Shown here: positions 16,796 through 26,119 of the stretch, one piece after another
How positions within the stretch are numbered: the stretch's first letter is position 1
Layout of the letters: each line of letters starts with the position of its first letter
Assembly (NCBI RefSeq): GCF_004310425.1
Contig: NZ_SIUB01000001.1
Coordinates: forward strand, 620,001 to 684,000
Direction of reading: 5' to 3'
DNA from: Hansschlegelia quercus
GTDB lineage: Bacteria; Pseudomonadota; Alphaproteobacteria; Rhizobiales; Methylopilaceae
DNA: 64,000 nucleotides
Position numbers and translations under genes: made by a program
Notes under the pieces: model-generated
Told to the model about the DNA's origin: nothing
The model's input: only the letters and a program-made list of their open reading frames with translations
Databases searched by the model: none

Positions 16796-18232
16796 GTGAT
16801 CGCAATCCGGAATCGCAGGGCGCTGCTCGCAGGCGCCAGTTCAGCCGCCGCGCTCCTCGCTTTGCTGCTGCTCCTGCCCCCGCCGGGCGGCCACGTCGAA
16901 GGGCGGACGCTGTCGCTCGGCTGGACGCTGCCGCTCGTCGGCCTGCTCGGCTCCATTGCGATCCTGCCGCTCGCGGGTCCGCATTTCTGGCATCACCACC
17001 ACGGCAAGGTCGCGGCCTTCTGGGCGCTCGTATTGCTCGTGCCGTTCGCCATCGTCGAGGGGCCGGCCGAGGTCGCCGGCGAAGTCGTGCACGCCGCGGC
17101 GTTAGAATACGTGCCGTTCGTGATCCTGCTGTTCTCGCTGTTCACCGTGTCCGGCGGGCTGCTTGTCCGCGGAGCGCTGAAGGGAAGCCCTGAGGTCAAC
17201 GTCGCTCTGCTCGCGATCGGCGCGCTGCTGGCGAGCGTCATCGGCACGACAGGCGCCTCGATGGTGCTCATCCGCCCGCTGATCCGCGCGAATGTCGACC
17301 GCCGGCGCAACGTCCATATCGTGGTGTTCTTCATCTTCATCGTCTCGAACGTCGGAGGCTCGCTGACGCCGCTCGGCGATCCTCCTCTGTTCCTCGGCTT
17401 CCTTCAGGGCGTTACGTTCTTCTGGACGACCACCCATCTCTGGCGTGAGACCGCCCTCGTCCTCGGCCTGCTGCTCGGGATCTTCTATCTACTCGACCGC
17501 TGGTTCTACTCTCGCGAGGAGCGGCCGCGGATGATCGATCCAACGCCGGCCGCGCCGCTCGGGTTGGAAGGACTGCAGAATCTTCCGCTGCTCGCAGGCG
17601 TCGTCGGGGCGATCCTGATGAGCGGGATCTGGGATCCCGGCATAAATGTGGATCTCTACGGCGCGCATGTGCCACTGCAGGCGGTCCTGCGCGACGTCAT
17701 CCTGGTCGTGCTGGCGCTGATCTCGCTGAAGATCACGCCGTGGCCGCTGCGCGAGCGCAACGGCTTCGACTGGGAGCCGATCCGAGAAGTCGCCAAGCTC
17801 TTCGCGGCGATCTTCGTAACGCTCATTCCGGCCCTGCTGATCCTGAAGGCCGGACCCGACGGCCCCGCGGCGCCCCTGATCGCGCTCGTCTCCAACCACG
17901 CCGGCGCTCCGGCCCCCGCCGCGTATTTCTGGGCGACGGGCCTGCTGTCGGCCGTGCTCGACAACGCGCCGACCTATCTCGTCTTCTTCAATCTCGCTGG
18001 CGGAGACGCGGGCCTGCTGATGAGCGAGCGTGCCGACACGCTGGCGGCGATCTCCGCCGGCGCGGTATTCATGGGCGCGCTCACCTATATAGGCAACGCG
18101 CCCAACTTCATGGTGCTGGCGATCGCCCGCAACCGCGGCCTCGCGATGCCGAGCTTCTTCGGCTACATGGCCTGGTCCTGCGGAATCCTGCTGCCCTGCT
18201 TCGCGCTGGTGACGTGGCTGTTCTTCGTCTAG
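16796..18232 (+). CDS. NhaD/CitMHS-type sodium:proton antiporter or ion transporter
   Basis: 478 residues from GTG 16796, 18 bases after the MotB-like stop. About a dozen hydrophobic segments are visible. NVGGSLTPLGDPPLFLGFLQG, preceded by IGTTGASMVLIRPLI, is characteristic of the ion transporter superfamily members annotated as NhaD or UIT-type antiporters. The second repeat contains LSAVLDNAPTYLVFFNLAGG and GALTYIGNAPNFMV. These are inner-membrane secondary transporters exchanging Na+ or organic anions for protons. Its closeness to the stator pair on the same strand is notable if those stators use Na+, but no functional link is shown. Confidence 0.85.
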   Translation: MIAIRNRRALLAGASSAAALLALLLLLPPPGGHVEGRTLSLGWTLPLVGLLGSIAILPLAGPHFWHHHHGKVAAFWALVLLVPFAIVEGPAEVAGEVVHAAALEYVPFVILLFSLFTVSGGLLVRGALKGSPEVNVALLAIGALLASVIGTTGASMVLIRPLIRANVDRRRNVHIVVFFIFIVSNVGGSLTPLGDPPLFLGFLQGVTFFWTTTHLWRETALVLGLLLGIFYLLDRWFYSREERPRMIDPTPAAPLGLEGLQNLPLLAGVVGAILMSGIWDPGINVDLYGAHVPLQAVLRDVILVVLALISLKITPWPLRERNGFDWEPIREVAKLFAAIFVTLIPALLILKAGPDGPAAPLIALVSNHAGAPAPAAYFWATGLLSAVLDNAPTYLVFFNLAGGDAGLLMSERADTLAAISAGAVFMGALTYIGNAPNFMVLAIARNRGLAMPSFFGYMAWSCGILLPCFALVTWLFFV

Positions 18233-18245
18233 CGCCGAGGGCGCT
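18231..18245. terminator. Short hairpin between convergent genes
   Basis: AGCGCC, loop GAG, GGCGCT gives a perfect six-base stem followed by TTATTC. It sits exactly between the ends of the convergent antiporter and PEPCK-like genes and could terminate either transcript. The stem is short and the T-run weak, so the call is tentative. Confidence 0.3.
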
Positions 18246-19681
18246 TATTCCGCGGCCTCTCTGAACGGCGCTTCGTCGTCCTCGGCCGCGTCCTGCGCGG
18301 AGAGGCCGAGGCGCTCGGCCGCGGTTTCGAACTCGGCCTTCAGCTCGCGCGCCGCCGCCAGGAAAGCGCGCTTGTCGCCCCACGCTTTACGCGGCTGGAA
18401 CAGCAGCGGGTCGACGTCCGGAACGTCAACCGGAACCTCGAAGCCGAACATCTTGCTGGCGCGGCGCTCCAGACCGTCGAGCGCGCCGGAGCGGGCCGCG
18501 GCGACCAGCGCACGCGTCGCCTCCAGCGGCACACGGGTCTCGTCCGAAGCGGGGCCGACCCAGCCGGTGTTCACGAGCCAACAGCGGACGTCCTGCTCCG
18601 CGATCAGGCGGCCGAGCGTCTCGCCATAGGCGTCGAGATCCTCGGCAGCGCCGAAACCCGGATCGAACGTCGCCTGCGGGCCCTCCGACGAGACTTCCGG
18701 CCCGTAGCCTAGGAGCATGAAGCGGACCGCGCCTTCGACGTCGAGCCGCGCGATCGGCGGCAACACGCCGAACGCGTCGCGGGCGAGGATGAAGAGATCG
18801 GACGGTCGCAGCGCGCCGGAGGCGAGCGGCGTCGCAAGCGTTCCCTCGCTCTGCGGCTCGCGAGTGTCCGGATCGAGCGACGCATTCTCCACGACCGAGC
18901 CGAAACCCCATTGCGGAGTGATCCCGGCCTGCGCTGCGGGTTTGTCGACGCCGGAAAGCCCCTGCATCGACCAGCCGACGACGCCTTCGGTCAGCCCGTC
19001 TGGACCGACTAGGCTCGACTTGCCGGAGCCCTCGGCGCCCACAATCAGCGCGACTGCCGCGCCGTCGGTGACCGCGGCGTTGAGCCGAATCTCGTCTCCC
19101 GAAGGCGCCTCGACGCCGACGACGGCGTCCGCGATCGCTTTGACCAGCGCTGACGCCGACGCGCCGCCGCCAGACAGAACGATTCCGCGTTCGGCATCGA
19201 TCGCGACGAATGGGCCGCTGACTCCATGGCTCGCGGCGTCTGGACGGAACGAGGGAAGATCGAGCACCGTCAGCGCCGGGATGAACTGCTCGAGTTGAGC
19301 GCGATCCGAACGCTCGAACGACGACGCGGCGAACAGGGCGCGCCAGGCGTGCTCGGCGAAGACGCGCAAGGGCGTGCGCCGGTCGCCGGCGTGGAGGTCC
19401 TGCGCGAACAGCTCGCGGCCGGCGGCATGATCCGCCATGTCGGCGCGGAGCGCATCGAAACCGTCACTGCTGAGGCCGTCTTCGGCGACCCGCAGGATCG
19501 TCGCAGGGATGGTGACGCTCTCTCCGACCAGCGCGCCGGCGGCGCTCAGCTGCGCCTCTCCGCGCCGCACCGCGCGCTCGATCAGCGCGGGCGCGCCGAA
19601 GTTCCAGCTGACGCCCGACAACCGCTCCAGCCCGAAAGCCTCGACGCCATGCGCCGCGTTCCAAATCCCGGTCTGCCGCAC
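18245..19681 (-). CDS. PEPCK (ATP-type)-like protein lacking most catalytic residues
   Basis: 478 residues from GTG 19681, chosen because GGGAGG lies nine bases upstream and because RQTGIWNAAHG matches the usual PckA N-terminus. The PckA framework is clear: LVNTGWVG (residues 369-376), RDAFGVLPPIARL (301-313), VENASLD and EATRALV. Yet the OAA-binding HTGRSPKDKF segment is replaced (GESVTIPATIL, 53-63), the MHCSAN His by RLNAAV (199-204), the metal-binding GDDEHGW by TEGVVGWS (231-238), and NFEGGCYAK is gone. The P-loop survives in altered form (GAEGSGKSS, Lys221). It occupies the position of pckA beside chvI-chvG-hprK in rhizobia. PEP carboxykinase activity is unlikely; a binding or regulatory role is inference. 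The frame is intact, so it is not a simple pseudogene. Confidence 0.85.
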   Translation of the reverse strand: MRQTGIWNAAHGVEAFGLERLSGVSWNFGAPALIERAVRRGEAQLSAAGALVGESVTIPATILRVAEDGLSSDGFDALRADMADHAAGRELFAQDLHAGDRRTPLRVFAEHAWRALFAASSFERSDRAQLEQFIPALTVLDLPSFRPDAASHGVSGPFVAIDAERGIVLSGGGASASALVKAIADAVVGVEAPSGDEIRLNAAVTDGAAVALIVGAEGSGKSSLVGPDGLTEGVVGWSMQGLSGVDKPAAQAGITPQWGFGSVVENASLDPDTREPQSEGTLATPLASGALRPSDLFILARDAFGVLPPIARLDVEGAVRFMLLGYGPEVSSEGPQATFDPGFGAAEDLDAYGETLGRLIAEQDVRCWLVNTGWVGPASDETRVPLEATRALVAAARSGALDGLERRASKMFGFEVPVDVPDVDPLLFQPRKAWGDKRAFLAAARELKAEFETAAERLGLSAQDAAEDDEAPFREAAE

Positions 19682-19854
19682 GATGGCGATCCTCCCGCTT
19701 TGTGTCGCGTCCGGTTCGTCCCGCCGGAGCGGGCATGACGGTTTGAAGACCAATCAGCCAAAAACGACCGTAACGTGACGCGCGCCGAACGCCGCTTCCG
19801 CGAACCCGTACGGGAAGAATCGTCGGGATAAGCTGTGGAGAAGTGGCGTCGCGT

Positions 19855-20592
19855 TCAGCCGCGCGCCTTCGCCACAAGCGCCACCAGCGCTTTCCGCACC
19901 TCGCCCGCGTTCGTCACCGGTTCGGGGAACGGCAAGTAGAGCGCACGGCCGGCAAGCCCGATCTCGCAACCGAGCGGATCGCAGCCTTCAAAGCGCCAGT
20001 CGCCGTCCTCCGCGCCCAGCAACTTCGTAGCGTAGAGCCTGGTCGCGTCGGCATGGTCTTCGTTCATGTGCTCGACGATGCCGGCCTCCGCTTCGAAAAG
20101 CTTCTCGGCGCCGCCCGTTTCAGTGCGCAGTTCGGCCCAGTCCAGATCGACGATGCGGCCGAAGCCGGCCACGAGATGCGCGCCTTCCGGCTCCAGCCGC
20201 TGCATGCGGAAGTCGCCGAAGTCGAAATACATCGCGGAGTCCGGCTGCCGCGCGAGCCAGCGCGCCCTCCTGGCTTCCTTGTCGACCTCGACCGTGCGGC
20301 CGAACAGCGTGACGCGGGGATGGGCGAGCGGGTCGCCCGCGCCGATATCCGCCGCCAATACGCTCGCTTCCGGAGACGCCGAGAGGTTTCGCGTGTGGCG
20401 GGCGAGGTTTGAAACCAGCATCAGCGGCGCGCCGTCCTCGTCGGACGCGACGCCGACCAGCGAGACGTAAGGCCTGCCGCCGTCGCTGTCCCTCGTCGCG
20501 AGGCTGGCTCGCCGGGCGGAGCGAAGCAGGCCGCGCGCAGAGACGACTGGATCGAATTCGGACGTGGCGACGGGCGCCTCAACTTCGGTCAT
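19855..20592 (-). CDS. HugZ-family / pyridoxamine-phosphate-oxidase-like haem protein
   Basis: 245 residues. The N-terminal half is a split-barrel flavin-binding fold (RGLLRSARRASLATRDSDGGRPYVSLVGVA, LMLVSNLARHTRNL, RVTLFGRTVEVD). The C-terminal part contains EAGIVEHMNEDHADATRLYATKLLG, typical of the DUF2470 domain found in HugZ haem-utilisation proteins. HugZ-type proteins bind haem and can act as haem oxygenases, but many members are uncharacterised. It lies between the PEPCK-like gene (same strand, downstream) and chvI (divergent). Function beyond family membership is not claimed. Confidence 0.85.
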   Translation of the reverse strand: MTEVEAPVATSEFDPVVSARGLLRSARRASLATRDSDGGRPYVSLVGVASDEDGAPLMLVSNLARHTRNLSASPEASVLAADIGAGDPLAHPRVTLFGRTVEVDKEARRARWLARQPDSAMYFDFGDFRMQRLEPEGAHLVAGFGRIVDLDWAELRTETGGAEKLFEAEAGIVEHMNEDHADATRLYATKLLGAEDGDWRFEGCDPLGCEIGLAGRALYLPFPEPVTNAGEVRKALVALVAKARG

Positions 20593-20696
20593 GCGCGTGA
20601 ATTCCTTGAAGATCTTGGAACGATAGAGTGCCGGTCACATTTAAGCCACGGGATCACGGTTCATCGGCCGAACTCTGTGATATACAAGAAGGCGCC

Positions 20697-21404
20697 ATGC
20701 CGACGATCGCCCTGGTCGATGACGACCGCAACATCCTGACCTCAGTCTCCATCGCGTTGGAGGCCGAAGGCTACCGGATCCAGACCTACAACGACGGCGC
20801 CGCCGCCCTCGATGGCTTGCGCGCCGCGCCGCCGGACCTCGCGATCTTCGACATCAAGATGCCCCGCATGGACGGCATGGAGCTGCTGCGCAGGCTTCGT
20901 CAGAAGTCCGAACTCCCAGTGATCTTCCTGACGTCCAAGGACGAGGAGATCGACGAACTGTTCGGCCTGAAGATGGGCGCGGACGATTTCATCCGGAAGC
21001 CATTCTCCCAGCGCCTGCTGGTCGAGCGCGTCAAGGCCGTGCTGCGTCGGGCCGCCGCCAAGGAGGTCCCGGTCCCCGGGGCCGCCAAGGGCGTCGATTC
21101 GAAGGCCATCGAGCGGGGCCAGCTGATGATGGACCCCGAGCGTCACACCTGCACCTGGAAGGGCGAGCAGGTGACGCTCACCGTCACCGAGTTCCTCATC
21201 CTGCAGGCGCTCGCCATGCGGCCCGGCGTCGTGAAGAGCCGCAACGCCCTGATGGACGCGGCCTATGACGACCAAGTCTATGTCGACGACCGCACGATCG
21301 ACAGCCACATCAAGCGGCTCCGCAAGAAGTTCAAGTCGAGCGACGACGACTTCGACATGATCGAGACGCTGTACGGCGTCGGCTACCGCTTCAAGGAGAT
21401 CTGA
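20697..21404 (+). CDS. chvI: Response regulator ChvI (OmpR family)
   Basis: 235 residues from ATG 20697 ([22 protein letters not shown]); the frame extends upstream without similarity. The receiver domain has the acidic pocket VDDD and Asp52 in [11 protein letters not shown] as phosphoacceptor, with LTSKDEE and KPFSQRLL supplying the Thr/Ser and Lys. The C-terminal winged-helix domain includes [29 protein letters not shown] and [10 protein letters not shown]. ChvI with ChvG controls the envelope/acid-stress programme in Rhizobiales. It is followed 37 bases later by chvG, and divergent from the HugZ-like gene. The roughly 100-base shared upstream region is relatively AT-rich. Confidence 0.96.
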
Positions 21405-21441: not shown

Positions 21442-23229
21442 ATGAGCGTCGAAGCCGAGCGGGCGGACGATATCGTCCAGGCCGATACCGAGGAGGACGC
21501 CGCCCGCGAACCGTTGGGCGTGCGGCTGAGGCGGAGCCTTACTGCGCTCCGGCAGCTCGGCTTCTCCAGCCTCACCCGCCGCATCCTCGTGCTGAACCTC
21601 GCGGGTCTCGTCGCGCTGGTGTCGGGCATTCTCTACCTCAACCAGTTCCGAGCGGGTCTGACCGACGCGCGCCTGCAGAGCCTGTTGATCCAGGGCGAGA
21701 TCATCGCCGGCGCGATCGCCTCTTCGGCCACCGCCGACACCAACCAGCTCTATGTCGATCCCAACAAGTTGATGGAGCTTCAGGCCGGGCAGACGGCGGC
21801 CCCCGGCGAAGAAAGCCTCCAAAGCCTCGAATTCCCGATCAATCCCGAGAAGATCGCGCCGGTCCTGCGCCGGCTCGTGACGCCGACCCGCACCCGGGCG
21901 CGCATCTACGACCGCGAGGGCGCGCTGCTGCTCGATTCCCGCTCGCTCTACGCGCGCGGCGACATCCTGCGGTTCGACTTGCCGCCGCCGCGCCGGCAGG
22001 ACGACAGCATGATCGGCGGCCTCGTACGCACTGTGAAGGGTTGGTTCCGCCGCACCGACCTGCCGCTCTACGCCGAACTCGGCGCAGCCAACGGCCGCGG
22101 CTATCCGGAAGTCACCAAGGCGCTCTCCGGCGCGCCGAACAGCATCGTGCGCGTGAACGAAGGCGGCGAGATCATCGTCTCCGTCGCGGTCCCGATCCAG
22201 CGCTTCCGCGCGGTCACCGGCGTGCTGCTGCTCTCGACGCAAGGCGGCGACATCGACGCCATCGTGCAGGCCGAGCGCTACGCCATCATGCGCGTGTTCC
22301 TCGTCGCGGCGGCCGTCATGGTCGTGCTGTCGCTGCTGCTCGCGAGCACCATCGCGGGGCCTGTGCGCAAGCTCGCTGACGGCGCCGTGCGCGTCCGGCA
22401 CCGCTACAAGCACCGCGAGGAGATCCCGGACTTCACGCGGCGGTCGGACGAGATCGGCCACCTGTCCGGCGCGCTCCGCGACATGACCAGCGCGCTCTAT
22501 GCCCGGATCGAGGCGATCGAGCGGTTCGCCGCCGACGTCGCCCATGAGCTCAAGAACCCGCTCACCTCGCTCCGCTCTGCGGTCGAGACCCTGCCGCTCG
22601 CCAAGACCGAGCAGTCCAAGGCGCGGTTGCTCGAGGTGATCGAGCATGACGTTCGGCGGCTCGACCGGCTGATCAGCGACATCTCGGACGCGAGCCGCCT
22701 CGACGCGGAGCTTCAGCGGCAGGACGCCGAGCCGATCGACGTCGTGACTTTGCTCTCCACCGTGCTCGACATGCAGAACGGCGCGCCGCGCGATGGCGGC
22801 GTCACGGTCGAGCTCAAGGTCGCGGACGCTGCGAGAGGGCGCGACGCCTATCTCGTGCTCGGCAACGATTCGCGGCTGGCCCAGGTCGTCACCAACCTCG
22901 TCGACAACGCCCGCTCCTTCTCTCCGCCGGGGGCGGTGGTGAAGGTCACCTGCCGACGCTCGCGGGGATTCGTCGAGATCGTGGTGGACGACGTCGGGCC
23001 GGGGATACGGCCGGATGCGATCGAGAAAATCTTCGAGCGTTTCTACACCGATCGCCCCGAGCAGGGCTTTGGCCAGAACTCCGGCCTCGGCCTGTCGATC
23101 TCGAAGCAGATCGTGGAATCGCAGGGCGGCGTCATTCGCGCGGAAAACCGCAGCGAGATCGGGCCGGACGGCGAGCCGATCATAAAGGGCGCGCGCTTCA
23201 CGGTCCGGCTGAAGGCCGCGCTCACATGA
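21442..23229 (+). CDS. chvG: Sensor histidine kinase ChvG
   Basis: 595 residues from ATG 21442. There are two transmembrane segments (ILVLNLAGLVALVSGILYL and VFLVAAAVMVVLSLLLASTIAG) flanking a periplasmic sensor of about 230 residues, as in ChvG/ExoS. A HAMP segment follows, then the H-box DVAHELKNPLTSLRSAVETL with His368, and the ATP-binding N (NLVDNARSF), G1 (DDVGPGI) and G2 (GLGLSISKQIVESQGG) boxes. ChvG senses envelope or acid stress and phosphorylates ChvI. The gene ends in an ATGA overlap with hprK, so the two are likely translationally coupled. Confidence 0.96.
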   Translation: MSVEAERADDIVQADTEEDAAREPLGVRLRRSLTALRQLGFSSLTRRILVLNLAGLVALVSGILYLNQFRAGLTDARLQSLLIQGEIIAGAIASSATADTNQLYVDPNKLMELQAGQTAAPGEESLQSLEFPINPEKIAPVLRRLVTPTRTRARIYDREGALLLDSRSLYARGDILRFDLPPPRRQDDSMIGGLVRTVKGWFRRTDLPLYAELGAANGRGYPEVTKALSGAPNSIVRVNEGGEIIVSVAVPIQRFRAVTGVLLLSTQGGDIDAIVQAERYAIMRVFLVAAAVMVVLSLLLASTIAGPVRKLADGAVRVRHRYKHREEIPDFTRRSDEIGHLSGALRDMTSALYARIEAIERFAADVAHELKNPLTSLRSAVETLPLAKTEQSKARLLEVIEHDVRRLDRLISDISDASRLDAELQRQDAEPIDVVTLLSTVLDMQNGAPRDGGVTVELKVADAARGRDAYLVLGNDSRLAQVVTNLVDNARSFSPPGAVVKVTCRRSRGFVEIVVDDVGPGIRPDAIEKIFERFYTDRPEQGFGQNSGLGLSISKQIVESQGGVIRAENRSEIGPDGEPIIKGARFTVRLKAALT

Positions 23230-23807
23230 TCGCAGGGCCCAGCATCCACGCCAATTGCGTGCTCCTCGGCGAGGCTGGCGTGCTGATCAGGGGCGCGCCC
23301 GGCGCGGGCAAGTCGTCGCTGTCGGAAATCCTTGTCGCCGCGGCGGAGCCGCGAGGACAGTTCGCCCGGCTGGTCGCCGATGACCGCACGCTGCTGGAGC
23401 GCGCCAGCGGCCGGTTGGTCGCCTCCGCTCCCGCAGCCCTTGCTGGATTGATCGAACGGCGAGGCTACGGGATCGTCAAAATCCCTTATGCGGAGGCCGC
23501 GATCGTGCGTCTCGTGGTGGATATCGAGGACGATCTGGCCCGAATGCCTACCGCAGAGGCGAAAGAAGTTCAGATCGAGGGCATCGCCTTGCCGCGGATT
23601 GCCGCGCCCAAAGGCGAGGCGAATCAGGCGATCGGCCTTGTTTTTGGCGCCCTTGAGAGCTTTTGGCGCCGTTGCTGTGTCCGCTCCCCTCTTGCGTTCG
23701 CGGCGCAACATGGAAAACTCATGCTTTCGGCGCCGGTATGCGCCAACCTGTGGGAAGACGTTCGCCACGATGGCGGCGAGCGAAGTCCCCGACCCGGAGC
23801 GCAATGA
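23226..23807 (+). CDS. hprK: HPr kinase/phosphorylase, short alphaproteobacterial type
   Basis: 193 residues beginning at the ATGA overlap with chvG. It carries the HprK catalytic core only, as in Rhizobiales: IHANCVLLGEAGVLIRGAPGAGKSS with P-loop Lys29, RLVADDRTLLE, and AGLIERRGYGIVKIPY. HprK phosphorylates HPr on the regulatory serine and removes that phosphate, coupling PTS state to ChvIG-regulated functions. Family members I recall are about 150 residues; here about 40 additional residues rich in Cys/Arg/Gly (from FWRRCCVRSPL on) extend the C-terminus. Whether this tail is real or reflects an old frame change near 23650-23700 is open. Confidence 0.9.
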   Translation: MIAGPSIHANCVLLGEAGVLIRGAPGAGKSSLSEILVAAAEPRGQFARLVADDRTLLERASGRLVASAPAALAGLIERRGYGIVKIPYAEAAIVRLVVDIEDDLARMPTAEAKEVQIEGIALPRIAAPKGEANQAIGLVFGALESFWRRCCVRSPLAFAAQHGKLMLSAPVCANLWEDVRHDGGERSPRPGAQ

Positions 23808-23825
23808 GTTTTGCGCGGAGACTGC

Positions 23826-24227
23826 ATGATAGGCCTGGTCCTCGTCACCCATGGGCGTCTCGCCTGTGAGTTTCGCGCCGCTCTCGAACACGTGGTCGGC
23901 CCGCAGAACCAAATTGCGACCGTCACGATCGATCCCGAGGACGACATGGAGCTCCGACGTGGCGACATCATCGCCGCGGTGCGGGACGTCGATACCGGAG
24001 ACGGCGTCGCGGTGCTTACCGATATGTTCGGCGGCACCCCATCAAATCTTGCGATCTCATGCATGGACGGCCGGAAGGTCGAGGTCATAGCCGGCATCAA
24101 CCTTCCGATGCTGATCAAGCTCGCAAGCGTGCGCGGAGACCTTCCGCTCGACGTCGCGGTCGTTCAGGCTCAGGACGCCGGACGCAAATACATCAACGTC
24201 GCGAGCCGCGTTCTGTCGGGCAAGTAA
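23826..24227 (+). CDS. PTS EIIA component, mannose/fructose family
   Basis: 133 residues from ATG 23826 with GGAG five bases upstream. The N-terminus MIGLVLVTHGRLACEF carries His9, the phosphorylated residue of EIIA(Man) proteins, and LTDMFGGTPSNLA is the family signature. In alphaproteobacteria that lack sugar PTS permeases, this EIIA and HPr form a regulatory phosphorelay (PTS-Ntr) fed by EI-Ntr rather than a transport system. It lies 18 bases after hprK and about 50 bases before the HPr gene, consistent with one transcript from chvI onward. No EIIB, EIIC or EIID gene is nearby. Confidence 0.95.
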   Translation: MIGLVLVTHGRLACEFRAALEHVVGPQNQIATVTIDPEDDMELRRGDIIAAVRDVDTGDGVAVLTDMFGGTPSNLAISCMDGRKVEVIAGINLPMLIKLASVRGDLPLDVAVVQAQDAGRKYINVASRVLSGK

Positions 24228-24278: not shown

Positions 24279-24566
24279 GTGGAGTCCGGGCAGGGTTCGG
24301 TCGCGCGCGAGCTCGCGATCGTCAATAAGCGCGGGCTTCACGCCCGGGCTTCCGCAAAATTCGTGCAGACGGTCGAACGCTTCGGCGCGACGATCCGGGT
24401 CAGCCGCAACGGCGAGACCGTCGGCGGCTCCTCGATCATGGGTCTGATGATGCTGGCCGCCGGCAAAGGCACCACAATCCATGTCGAAGCCGAAGGCGCC
24501 GACGCCGAAGAGGCGATTGCGGCGCTGACTGCGCTTGTCGAGAATCGTTTCGGGGAAGAAGAGTAG
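24279..24566 (+). CDS. ptsH: Phosphocarrier protein HPr
   Basis: 95 residues from GTG 24279, with GGGAGA about nine bases upstream. His21 in NKRGLHARASAKFV is the EI-phosphorylated residue. Ser52 in GGSSIMGLMMLAAGKG is the residue HprK would modify, so both regulatory sites are present. It is the last gene of the chvI-chvG-hprK-EIIA-HPr block. A weak GATCC/GGATC hairpin just after the stop and an inverted-repeat element further on may end the transcript. Confidence 0.96.
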   Translation: MESGQGSVARELAIVNKRGLHARASAKFVQTVERFGATIRVSRNGETVGGSSIMGLMMLAAGKGTTIHVEAEGADAEEAIAALTALVENRFGEEE

Positions 24567-24599
24567 CGATCCGCAAAGGATCTATTCGCGGAAAGGGCG

Positions 24600-24702
24600 C
24601 GTCATCCCGGCCGAGCGGAGCGGGAGCCGTGATCGTCCTCAGAATAAGACGCGACTTCTTGCAAACGATCCCGGATCGGCCTTGCGGCCGTCCGGGATGA
24701 CG
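24600..24702. repeat. REP-like intergenic element with 11-base inverted termini
   Basis: CGTCATCCCGG at 24600-24610 is the exact reverse complement of CCGGGATGACG at 24692-24702, and an inner CCCGGAT/GGCCTTGCGGCC stretch allows more pairing. The 100-base unit fills the gap between the HPr gene and the convergent Tim44-domain gene. Similar GTCATCCCGG-bordered palindromic repeats are common between genes in Rhizobiales. A related fragment (CATGCCCGC-TCCG-GCGGGAC on the minus strand) lies near 19723-19740. It may act as a bidirectional terminator or simply be a dispersed repeat. Confidence 0.6.
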
Positions 24703-24729
24703 TTCTTCGCCGACGACGCGGAGCCCCGC

Positions 24730-25737
24730 TTAAGCCGCCTGCTGGATCGCCGAGAGCAGCCAGTTCCCGCCGCGCGAGCGCACGAAGGTCCACATCTCCG
24801 CGGCCTCCGTCGGCCGGCTCTGGTCGCCATCGACGACGCGGCCGCTCGCCCGGTCCTCCGTCACGTCGATCAAGCCGTAGCGCATCGCCACGGTCGCGTA
24901 GTCGCGCGCGCCTTCGCGCCAAGCTTCCGCAAGGTCGCCCTGCAGCAGCTTGACGTCGGTGACGCGGTTGACGACGCCGCGGCTCGCATCGTCCGCGAGA
25001 TCCTCGGCGAAATCCTGCACCACCTCAGGCGTCGCAAGCCCACGCATCCGCTCTATGTCCTGAGCGGACCAAGCGGCCTGCACTTCGCCGAGCCTGGCCT
25101 CGAAGACGTCGAAGTCCTGCTTCTCGAGCGTCAGGGGCTCGCTCGCAGGCTGACCGCCGCCGAATCCGAAATTGCGCCCAAAGCCGGAGCCGCCAAGGCC
25201 CGCGCCCTGCGCCGGCTCGTTGTCGCGGTTGAGGCTGTAGGGCGAAGGGCCGCCGACCGCCGCCGGCTGCTCACCAGCCCTGCGGCGCGCGAACCAGCCC
25301 ATGACGAGGCGCACGACCAGGAAGATCAGCGCGCCCTGGATGAGCAGGCCGAACAGCGAGGACAGCGAGCCGAGACCGCCGAACAGACCGGAGCCCGACA
25401 GCAGGCCGAACAGGCCCGCGCCGAGCAGCCCGCCCATCAGGCCGGCGCCGAGACCACCGCCGAACAGGCCGCCACGACGCGGGGCCTGCTGGGCCGCCGC
25501 GTTATTGCCGAAGGAGGGCCCGGGCTGCGCCGTGGTCGAGCGCTGCATCGGGGCCGCTCCCGGCATGGTCGCGGTCGGCGGCGGCGCGGAGAAGGTCCTT
25601 GTCCCGCGACTGCCGAAGCTGCCGCCTCTGCCCGCCCGCGCATCCGCATCGACCGGCGCGAAGGTCGCGCCGATGAGAAGGGCCGCCGCAGCAATGCTGG
25701 CGCAGCGTTTCAGGGCATTGGCGCTTACGCGCTTCAT
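24730..25737 (-). CDS. Tim44-like domain membrane protein
   Basis: 335 residues from ATG 25737 (MKRVSANALKRC), with GGAG six bases upstream; earlier in-frame ATGs lack such a site. A signal peptide or anchor is followed by a Gly/Leu-rich hydrophobic stretch (about 95-140, LFGGGLGAGLMGGLLGAGLF and LIQGALIFLVVRLVMGWF). The C-terminal half (from LEKQDFDVFEARLGEVQAAW) is the Tim44-like NTF2-fold domain, ending LSAIQQAA. Bacterial Tim44-like proteins (TimA-type) are inner-membrane associated, and their role is poorly defined. It converges with the HPr gene. Confidence 0.85.
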   Translation of the reverse strand: MKRVSANALKRCASIAAAALLIGATFAPVDADARAGRGGSFGSRGTRTFSAPPPTATMPGAAPMQRSTTAQPGPSFGNNAAAQQAPRRGGLFGGGLGAGLMGGLLGAGLFGLLSGSGLFGGLGSLSSLFGLLIQGALIFLVVRLVMGWFARRRAGEQPAAVGGPSPYSLNRDNEPAQGAGLGGSGFGRNFGFGGGQPASEPLTLEKQDFDVFEARLGEVQAAWSAQDIERMRGLATPEVVQDFAEDLADDASRGVVNRVTDVKLLQGDLAEAWREGARDYATVAMRYGLIDVTEDRASGRVVDGDQSRPTEAAEMWTFVRSRGGNWLLSAIQQAA

Positions 25738-26119
25738 CGCAGTCTCCACCATCGTCAACCGCAGTTGCGGCCGCTCGAGCACAGATGGTTATGGGTGGCC
25801 TGCGCTCCAATAGCCCGACACATCATGCGAAACTAAGCTCACGTTTTATTTATCGCGGCGTGAGAGTTCACGATCGAAGCCTGCAGATCATGATCCACGC
25901 CCGAAGTACGGCGAAATACCTCGCTGCCGTGTCTTGGCGATAAACTGCGGGAGTCATGATCGGGCTCCCGGAAGCGGCAAGGTCTCTGGCTGCTGCAAGT
26001 AGGCCGCTCGGCTCTCCGCCGCCCTGCTTCCGCCACGCTGCGGCCTAAATGTCACGGCCGCGGCGAACTGCCTCACGACGGCATTTCAGGCTCGGCCTCG
26101 ACGCCATCCGGCCTTAAGC
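25738..26119. other. Intergenic region with no recognised gene
   Basis: About 380 bases between divergent genes, somewhat less GC-rich than its surroundings, especially 25820-25950. A small inverted repeat CTCACG (25838-25843) / CGTGAG (25859-25864) flanks an AT-rich TTTTATTTAT core. Two TCATGATC-like words occur near 25890 and 25953. It should hold the promoter of the Tim44-domain gene and of the small secreted protein gene. No open frame here resembles a known family. Confidence 0.4.

Follow-up and report, generated by a model that had tools for sequence, protein, structure and literature searches.

Many of the pseudoenzymes known so far derive from a duplicate gene, and HPr kinase/phosphorylase shares the fold of phosphoenolpyruvate carboxykinase (PEPCK). 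In alphaproteobacteria the gene for ATP-dependent PEPCK, pckA, lies divergent from chvI-chvG-hprK-ptsM-ptsO, according to the available part of PMC2937029. The pckA gene of Brucella abortus is described, in the accessible text of PMC9491525, as a premature-stop pseudogene and a direct BvrR target. We found no description of a pseudo-PEPCK in the literature searched, which included few subscription papers, and the words carboxykinase and PEPCK are absent from the main text of PMC10211241, a review that deals with nucleotide-binding pseudokinases and pseudoenzymes. The one paper listed as mentioning both PEPCK and pseudoenzymes is a review of phosphoglycerate kinase.

We analysed a 64,000-nucleotide stretch of DNA from Hansschlegelia quercus (contig NZ_SIUB01000001.1, positions 620,001 to 684,000; hereafter the window), which encodes a 478-aa orthologue of ATP-dependent PEPCK (PckA; PF01293; E. 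coli and Thermus structures 1ayl and 1j3b/1xkv). The protein resembles that enzyme in its orthologous gene, its locus and its predicted full-length fold, and it has the Walker A motif, NTGW and the equivalents of R449 and T455; it differs in lacking the substrate loop and the Mn site, and PEPCK activity is not expected of it. Like the pseudoenzymes in the available text of PMC10211241, it has lost catalytic residues, has an open frame under selection and has partly kept its ATP pocket. Unlike those, it has no active paralogue that we could find in its genome: a single orthologue has been eroded, and this in two genera. As in B. abortus (accessible text of PMC9491525), PckA was lost beside a ChvIG-type operon at the same locus, but the Brucella gene has a premature stop, whereas the frame in the window remains open and under constraint. 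The gene for HPr kinase/phosphorylase lies at a distance of 3.5 kb. No sequence match ties the window protein to that family: Pfam listed four matches for it at an E-value of up to 1, and Hpr_kinase_C was not one of them. The initial annotation pointed to the shared fold and proposed a ligand sensor for the ChvIG or PTS-Ntr system; the fold is no evidence for such a role.

Judged by its sequence, the window gene is very probably a PEPCK orthologue without catalytic residues that has been kept by selection. In this genome the sole PEPCK copy that we found has lost its active site and is still kept, a second genus has done the same, and intermediates are alive. This makes a natural experiment that separates PckA catalysis from any other activity the protein may have, and perhaps gives a reason for the position of pckA beside ChvIG and PTS-Ntr.

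Gene call, copy number and neighbourhood

The window protein matched Pfam PEPCK_ATP over profile positions 65-463 (7.4e-49, 167.1 bits against a cut-off of 26.5) and fell short of the NCBIfam PEPCK model cut-offs (best 263.7 bits vs 806). Since eroded proteins exceed the Pfam cut-off, metabolic models may wrongly assign PEPCK to such species. A search of the genome for a canonical pckA, a check suggested in the initial annotation, found none elsewhere: apart from the window gene, PF01293 matched nothing in the 3.58-Mb genome (assembly rated 100% complete), and GTP-PEPCK gave no match there or in 18 relatives. These profile searches rejected a second pckA elsewhere in the window genome. A scan of the genome collection with the window protein alone as query found no relative. 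In three congeners (G006, G009, which is Methylopila capsulata, and G011) the pck frame opens just three codons ahead of this GTG, so that translation cannot begin any earlier in those three.

An antisense gene as the source of the constraint described below is unlikely, as the third codon position of the sense frame was the most variable in the five pairs counted. The opposing frame that was read in the window gene contains stops; in Ancylobacter the directly opposing frame has stops in 7/12 pck genes and is open in 5/12. In G090 (L136 8964-11285, +) an open frame of 773 aa runs antisense to pck and hugZ and is probably a high-G+C by-product.

The gene order at the locus is CitMHS_2 transporter, pck, HutZ/DUF2470, chvI, chvG, hprK, EIIA-Man and HPr (Table 1). 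Adjacency to ChvIG/PTS is common to canonical pckA and is missing in G006, G009 and G011 (L043, L039 and L045), where no other gene of the locus set was found within 19.5 kb around pckA. Across the genus hprK (23226-23807) diverges much faster than its neighbours, at 45-54% identity. Its co-decay with pck was considered and rejected: it is that far from the window's hprK in all nine congeners compared, canonical ones included, so its divergence is not linked to pck erosion.

Table 1. Coordinates of the pck locus in the window
Feature	Position	Strand	Remarks
CitMHS_2 membrane transporter	16796..18232	+	Tail to tail with pck
Pseudo-PckA, 478 aa	18245..19681	-	GTG start at 19681, stop at 18245; orthologues at the same position in most congeners and in Ancylobacter
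RVPLEATR (residues 383-390)	18512..18535	-	Equivalents of ATP-binding R449 and T455
NTGW (residues 371-374)	18560..18571	-	From alignment
P-loop GAEGSGKS (residues 215-222)	19016..19039	-	Walker A consensus retained
Deletion point of GRSPKDKF substrate loop, between Ser55 and Val56	19514..19519	-	From alignment
N-terminal 50 residues	19532..19681	-	Conserved in eroded proteins
Ribosome-binding site GGGAGG	19691..19696	-	Just upstream of the GTG start
28-nt upstream element	19752..19779	-	70 nt before the start codon; presumed promoter or operator
HutZ/PNPOx-DUF2470 protein	19855..20592	-	Upstream of pck, same orientation
Response regulator, taken as ChvI	20628..21404	+	Position beside chvG
ChvG-type sensor kinase	21442..23229	+	
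HPr kinase (C-terminal domain family)	23226..23807	+	
EIIA-Man-like PTS protein	23811..24227	+	
HPr/NPr	24279..24566	+	
433-aa ORF after HPr	24535-25836		No Pfam/NCBIfam match under the thresholds applied; nine congeners have it at 40-52% identity

The 28-nt element upstream of pck scored 170 vs a maximum of 143 in 30 shuffles. It was present 53-71 nt before the start in 8/9 congeners compared, a comparison that left out G006, G009 and G011. The distance was 68-71 nt in the three eroded genes and in 5/7 canonical congeners and 53 nt in G004, and G003 gave no good match. Transcription of the eroded gene is probably retained. The element is possibly a promoter or a ChvI site.

Graded erosion in two genera

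Residues are numbered as in E. coli PckA and were compared with a reference set of 24 canonical proteins. We take R65, Y207, K213, H232, D269 and R333 to be the oxaloacetate/PEP and Mn residues; the roles behind the substrate/Mn and ATP sets, with K288 as an ATP ligand and R333 in substrate binding, are likewise our assumption. The alignment bore out the main reading of the initial annotation, a PEPCK-fold protein without most catalytic residues at the pckA-chvIG-hprK-PTS locus. The GRSPKDKF loop is gone, as are the active-site Tyr and His (Y207, H232), the DD pair (D269 missing, D268 replaced by Glu) and the NFEGGCYAK segment with K288; R65, K212 and R333 are missing too. The loss is less complete than had been claimed, as a Lys still aligns with K213, and five of the six oxaloacetate/PEP and Mn residues are lost. 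The P-loop is indeed changed in its x positions, but it still fits Walker A. Displacement of catalytic residues was not seen in the alignments, the K213-aligned Lys being the only one left in the window protein. PDB titles record crystal structures of the E. coli enzyme with mutations at R65, Y207, K212, K213, K254 and D269.

An AlphaFold model of the window protein, built from 48 sequences, had a mean pLDDT of 76.8 and a pTM of 0.58. The canonical H. zhihuaiae protein (G001), run as a control with the same alignment set, reached 89.5 and 0.89. By title, the 35 best PDB matches of the window model were ATP-type PEPCK structures or models (TM 0.64-0.70), and the TM-score against the Thermus enzyme was 0.68-0.70 over 502-508 columns. 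The model thus predicts a PEPCK fold over the full length, in line with the initial annotation. The middle is the uncertain part (pLDDT 44-79 for residues 181-290).

Thirteen genomes of the genus were compared. Ten have a canonical pckA and three an eroded one, all frames being open. PF01293 scores at the same locus form a graded series: 591 bits in H. beijingensis DSM 25481 (G002), a milder version of the erosion, 349 in the intermediate G005 and 152 in the window genome (G000). Relative to G000, the CitMHS, HugZ, ChvI, ChvG, EIIA and HPr proteins of G002 and G005 are 72-95% identical, hprK 51-54%, EpsL 62-69% and the ORF at 24535 48-49%, and their pck products are 40% and 47% identical. The three eroded genomes cluster in each of two trees. 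Neighbour genes give their clade an ultrafast bootstrap of 85 and the pair of G000 and G005 one of 77; with pck both groupings reach 100. G008 (L051), recorded as Chelatococcus sambhunathii S14, falls in the Methylopila/Hansschlegelia genus and is probably misnamed.

We then consider the order, in a sample of 397 genomes judged by the best E-value per genome among the matches listed. By this measure 315 genomes had a PEPCK match and 82 had none, and most genomes elsewhere in the sample either scored high or lacked a match. Among six genomes with low or intermediate scores that were looked up, G090 carried an eroded pck at this locus, open over its full length; its family sample held 198 genomes, again judged by best E-value per genome among the matches listed. 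Among 12 Ancylobacter genomes sampled, G511 and G540 are canonical and ten are eroded (552 to 144 bits), with every pck frame open and synteny as in the window. The genus was taken as Ancylobacter because a plasmid of G526 is as long as NZ_CP048631.1 (Ancylobacter pratisalsi) and identical to it over the 12 kb that were compared. Across the class, 389 genomes were sampled, of which 190 had a match, and they gave no further series by best E-value among the matches listed.

The tree of pck genes puts every Ancylobacter protein in a single clade (100) that is distinct from the window lineage, and the eroded ones cluster with their own canonical relatives, so the losses in the two genera are independent. 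Taken with the retention of the protein by selection, such a separate loss in a second bacterial group suggests a hidden second job of PckA. Within Ancylobacter, the neighbour-gene DNA tree places canonical G511 with G565 and the G090 clade (97; 70 in the protein tree), which would mean several losses within the genus; the pck tree instead groups the eroded proteins without G511 (99).

Several rows were not counted as eroded PckA, being short or contig-split matches (G019, G145, G265) or split or partial ones (G401, G402, G442, G453, G469, G543). G171, G233 and G276 (628-637 bits, open) were placed in neither the canonical nor the eroded group. The low-scoring rows G482, G491, G516, G541, G550, G563, G596 and G923 were left out, G923 (two matches) and G596 being class-wide low scorers. 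Alignments A2 and A3 took in 47/80 loci. In other genera of the Ancylobacter family, G402 (L148), G401 (L149) and G543 (L150) have a canonical-type pckA match split over two frames, reflecting either an ordinary route of loss or sequencing error.

Uneven residue loss and selection on the eroded proteins

The eroded set (n=13) comprised the ten Ancylobacter proteins and the three of the window lineage. R65 was retained in 2, Y207 in 1, K212 in 1, K213 in 2, H232 in 3, S234 in 0 and D269 in 3; K213, H232 and D269 were all missing in 9/13. In the ATP pocket K254 and D268 were each retained in 12/13 and S/T255, R449 and S/T455 in 13/13. G248, G253, W273 and N440 also survive in all 13. Walker A was retained in 12/13, and G565 has lost the P-loop lysine. 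K288 was retained in one protein and is Arg in nine. R333, retained in 12/13, counts against a clean split between substrate and ATP residues.

Permutation against random invariant columns gave a retention of 0.26 vs 0.60 for the seven substrate/Mn residues at strict identity (P 0.004), and of 0.33 vs 0.63 with soft matching (P 0.009). For the eleven ATP residues retention was 0.85 vs 0.63 with soft matching, in which conservative changes are counted (P 0.008), and 0.68 at strict identity, not significantly over background (P 0.23). In these alignments the asymmetry between the two sets is clear for loss and moderate for retention. This uneven survival of the ATP pocket, the graded series and the second genus go beyond the initial annotation.

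It is scarcely credible that weak residual PEPCK activity is still the selected trait. The mildest forms lend it some ground, as G002 retains R65, Y207, H232, D269 and R333 and G456 retains R65, K213, H232, D269 and R333, and inactivity is less certain for these two. Against it stand the nine proteins without K213, H232 and D269, the window protein with only a K213-aligned Lys, and constraint that persists in a clade without R65, Y207, K212, K213, H232 and D269.

That clade (G090, G477, G553 and G573) provides the cleanest test of selection after loss. All four species lack the six residues and, by parsimony, their ancestor lacked them too. Omega was 0.219 with free branch lengths, omega=1 being worse by 139.7 lnL; seven neighbour genes gave 0.008-0.089. 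The most constrained blocks were CWLVNTGW..R449 (0.084) and the N-terminus (0.115), followed by the P-loop (0.195), and the C-terminal block was not specially constrained (0.287). Simple counting yielded higher values: the G553/G573 pair had a dN/dS of 0.376, with neighbour genes at 0.011-0.111, and four further pairs had 0.40-0.46. Over the ten eroded Ancylobacter tips omega was 0.12-0.34, each rejecting 1 by 63-380 lnL, with canonical tips at 0.073; one short stem reached 1.39, and on the stem leading to the four-species clade omega was 0.57.

For the window lineage we used a codon model written for the analysis, with branch lengths fixed from six neighbour genes and synonymous sites near saturation. 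Omega was 0.065 for the canonical background, 0.30, 0.17 and 0.13 on the G000, G005 and G002 tips, and 0.58 and 0.53 on the two stems. Setting omega to 1 cost 8 and 10 lnL on these stems and 95-229 lnL on the tips. With free branch lengths the trio gave no reliable fit (saturated), omega=1 still being 200 lnL worse; the omega of 0.045 from that fit was left unused, a branch having run to or near its bound. The first 60 codons had omegas of 0.11, 0.04 and 0.14 on the three tips vs 0.086 for the background, and codons 180-240 of G000 were the most relaxed (0.67). Eroded-tip omegas were about 1.6-5 times background. The codon models in the two genera thus agree with the proposal in the initial annotation that selection acted on the protein after the loss.

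In neutral simulations (substitutions only, 1000 runs for each tip branch) 7-9 stops arose on average, and at most 0.2% of runs stayed stop-free over a tip branch. On the G000 branch 0.3% were stop-free over half its length and about 10-12% over a tenth. The open frame is therefore beyond chance, as the initial annotation had argued, and broken orthologues with dN/dS near 1 were not seen (0/13 frames broken, omega well below 1). Slow neutral decay of a useless gene, which would account for the acceleration, the graded residue loss and the omegas above background, is accordingly very improbable, and we rejected it on the open frames, the simulation and the codon models. In addition, G553 and G573 differ at 55/43/103 first, second and third codon positions with indels of 6 and 9 nt only, and the 28-nt upstream element is retained. 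The rest of the order, with mostly a high-scoring match or none among the matches listed and split genes in G402, G543 and G401, also speaks against neutral decay. Loss of active-site residues together with purifying selection is strongly supported by these comparisons.

The same data bear on two readings in which the protein is selected for something other than nucleotide-gated action on a partner. An altered enzyme might use Mg-ATP for another reaction, acting as a kinase on small molecules or proteins, as an ATPase or in nucleotidyl transfer; some pseudokinases have taken such a course. Such an enzyme would fit the survival of Walker A, D268, R333 and R449 and the omega below neutral in the four-species clade. 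We regard it as unlikely: most eroded proteins no longer have the Mn-binding K213, H232 and D269, and the ten columns that G000, G005 and G002 have in common and that are missing from 10 congeners hold R114, D402, K410 and K432 as their only charged residues, in a comparison made column by column along the sequence.

A pure scaffold or subunit seems rather unlikely as well. Here the fold would be selected as a structural partner, nucleotide binding would be irrelevant and the P-loop would survive as part of the fold. Retention of invariant positions is in keeping with this, at 94% of 5 in the N-terminal 55 residues and 82% of 17 in the last block vs 36% of 20 around K212/K213, and so is the lost P-loop lysine of G565. 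The CWLVNTGW..R449 block, the most constrained in the four-species clade, argues against it, since it presumably borders the adenine site.

Possible roles and metabolic setting

The pseudo-PEPCK is probably an ATP-binding switch or partner protein, and we lean towards one that acts by binding a nucleotide and thereby affecting a partner. A vertically inherited, single-copy pckA would have been converted to a pseudoenzyme once another route to PEP (malic enzyme and PPDK, C1 assimilation) made PEPCK chemistry dispensable. The oxaloacetate/PEP and Mn site would then have been dismantled stepwise, selection retaining a folded protein and, in particular, the N-terminal part, the NTGW-R449 region and a large share of the Mg-ATP pocket. 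Such a protein might bind Mg-ATP (or ADP), undergo PEPCK domain closure without chemistry and act in a regulatory role on a partner, perhaps one encoded by a neighbour (ChvIG, HprK, EIIA-Man or HPr). The partner role may have existed in PckA beside catalysis and been exposed once catalysis was lost. Position is what suggests a link of the pseudo-PckA to ChvIG or PTS-Ntr.

A wider proposal, which we offer tentatively and think doubtful, is that PckA of Hyphomicrobiales has a long-standing nucleotide-gated regulatory role coupled to the adjacent ChvIG/PTS-Ntr. Methylotrophic or autotrophic lineages that have a different source of PEP would repeatedly have lost its catalytic half, leaving dedicated ATP-sensing pseudo-PEPCKs in the enzyme's place and not beside it. 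That pckA is not beside chvIG in three congeners lowers the odds of such coupling.

Malic enzyme and PPDK together can make PEP, and PEPC consumes it. Both enzymes of this bypass are intact in the window genome, PPDK, PEPC and malic enzyme are present in 13/13 genomes of the genus, and PPDK is present in 12/12 Ancylobacter; both genera are, we assume, methylotrophs or autotrophs. With PEP available through malic enzyme and PPDK, a pseudo-PEPCK would be tolerated, which makes the dispensability of PEPCK put forward in the initial annotation plausible. It does not explain the loss, as congeners with canonical PckA have the same enzymes: the bypass permits loss. In Chenggangzhangella methanolivorans (G007; L035, L053) the PPDK, PEPC and malic enzyme matches are in pieces, probably through sequencing errors.
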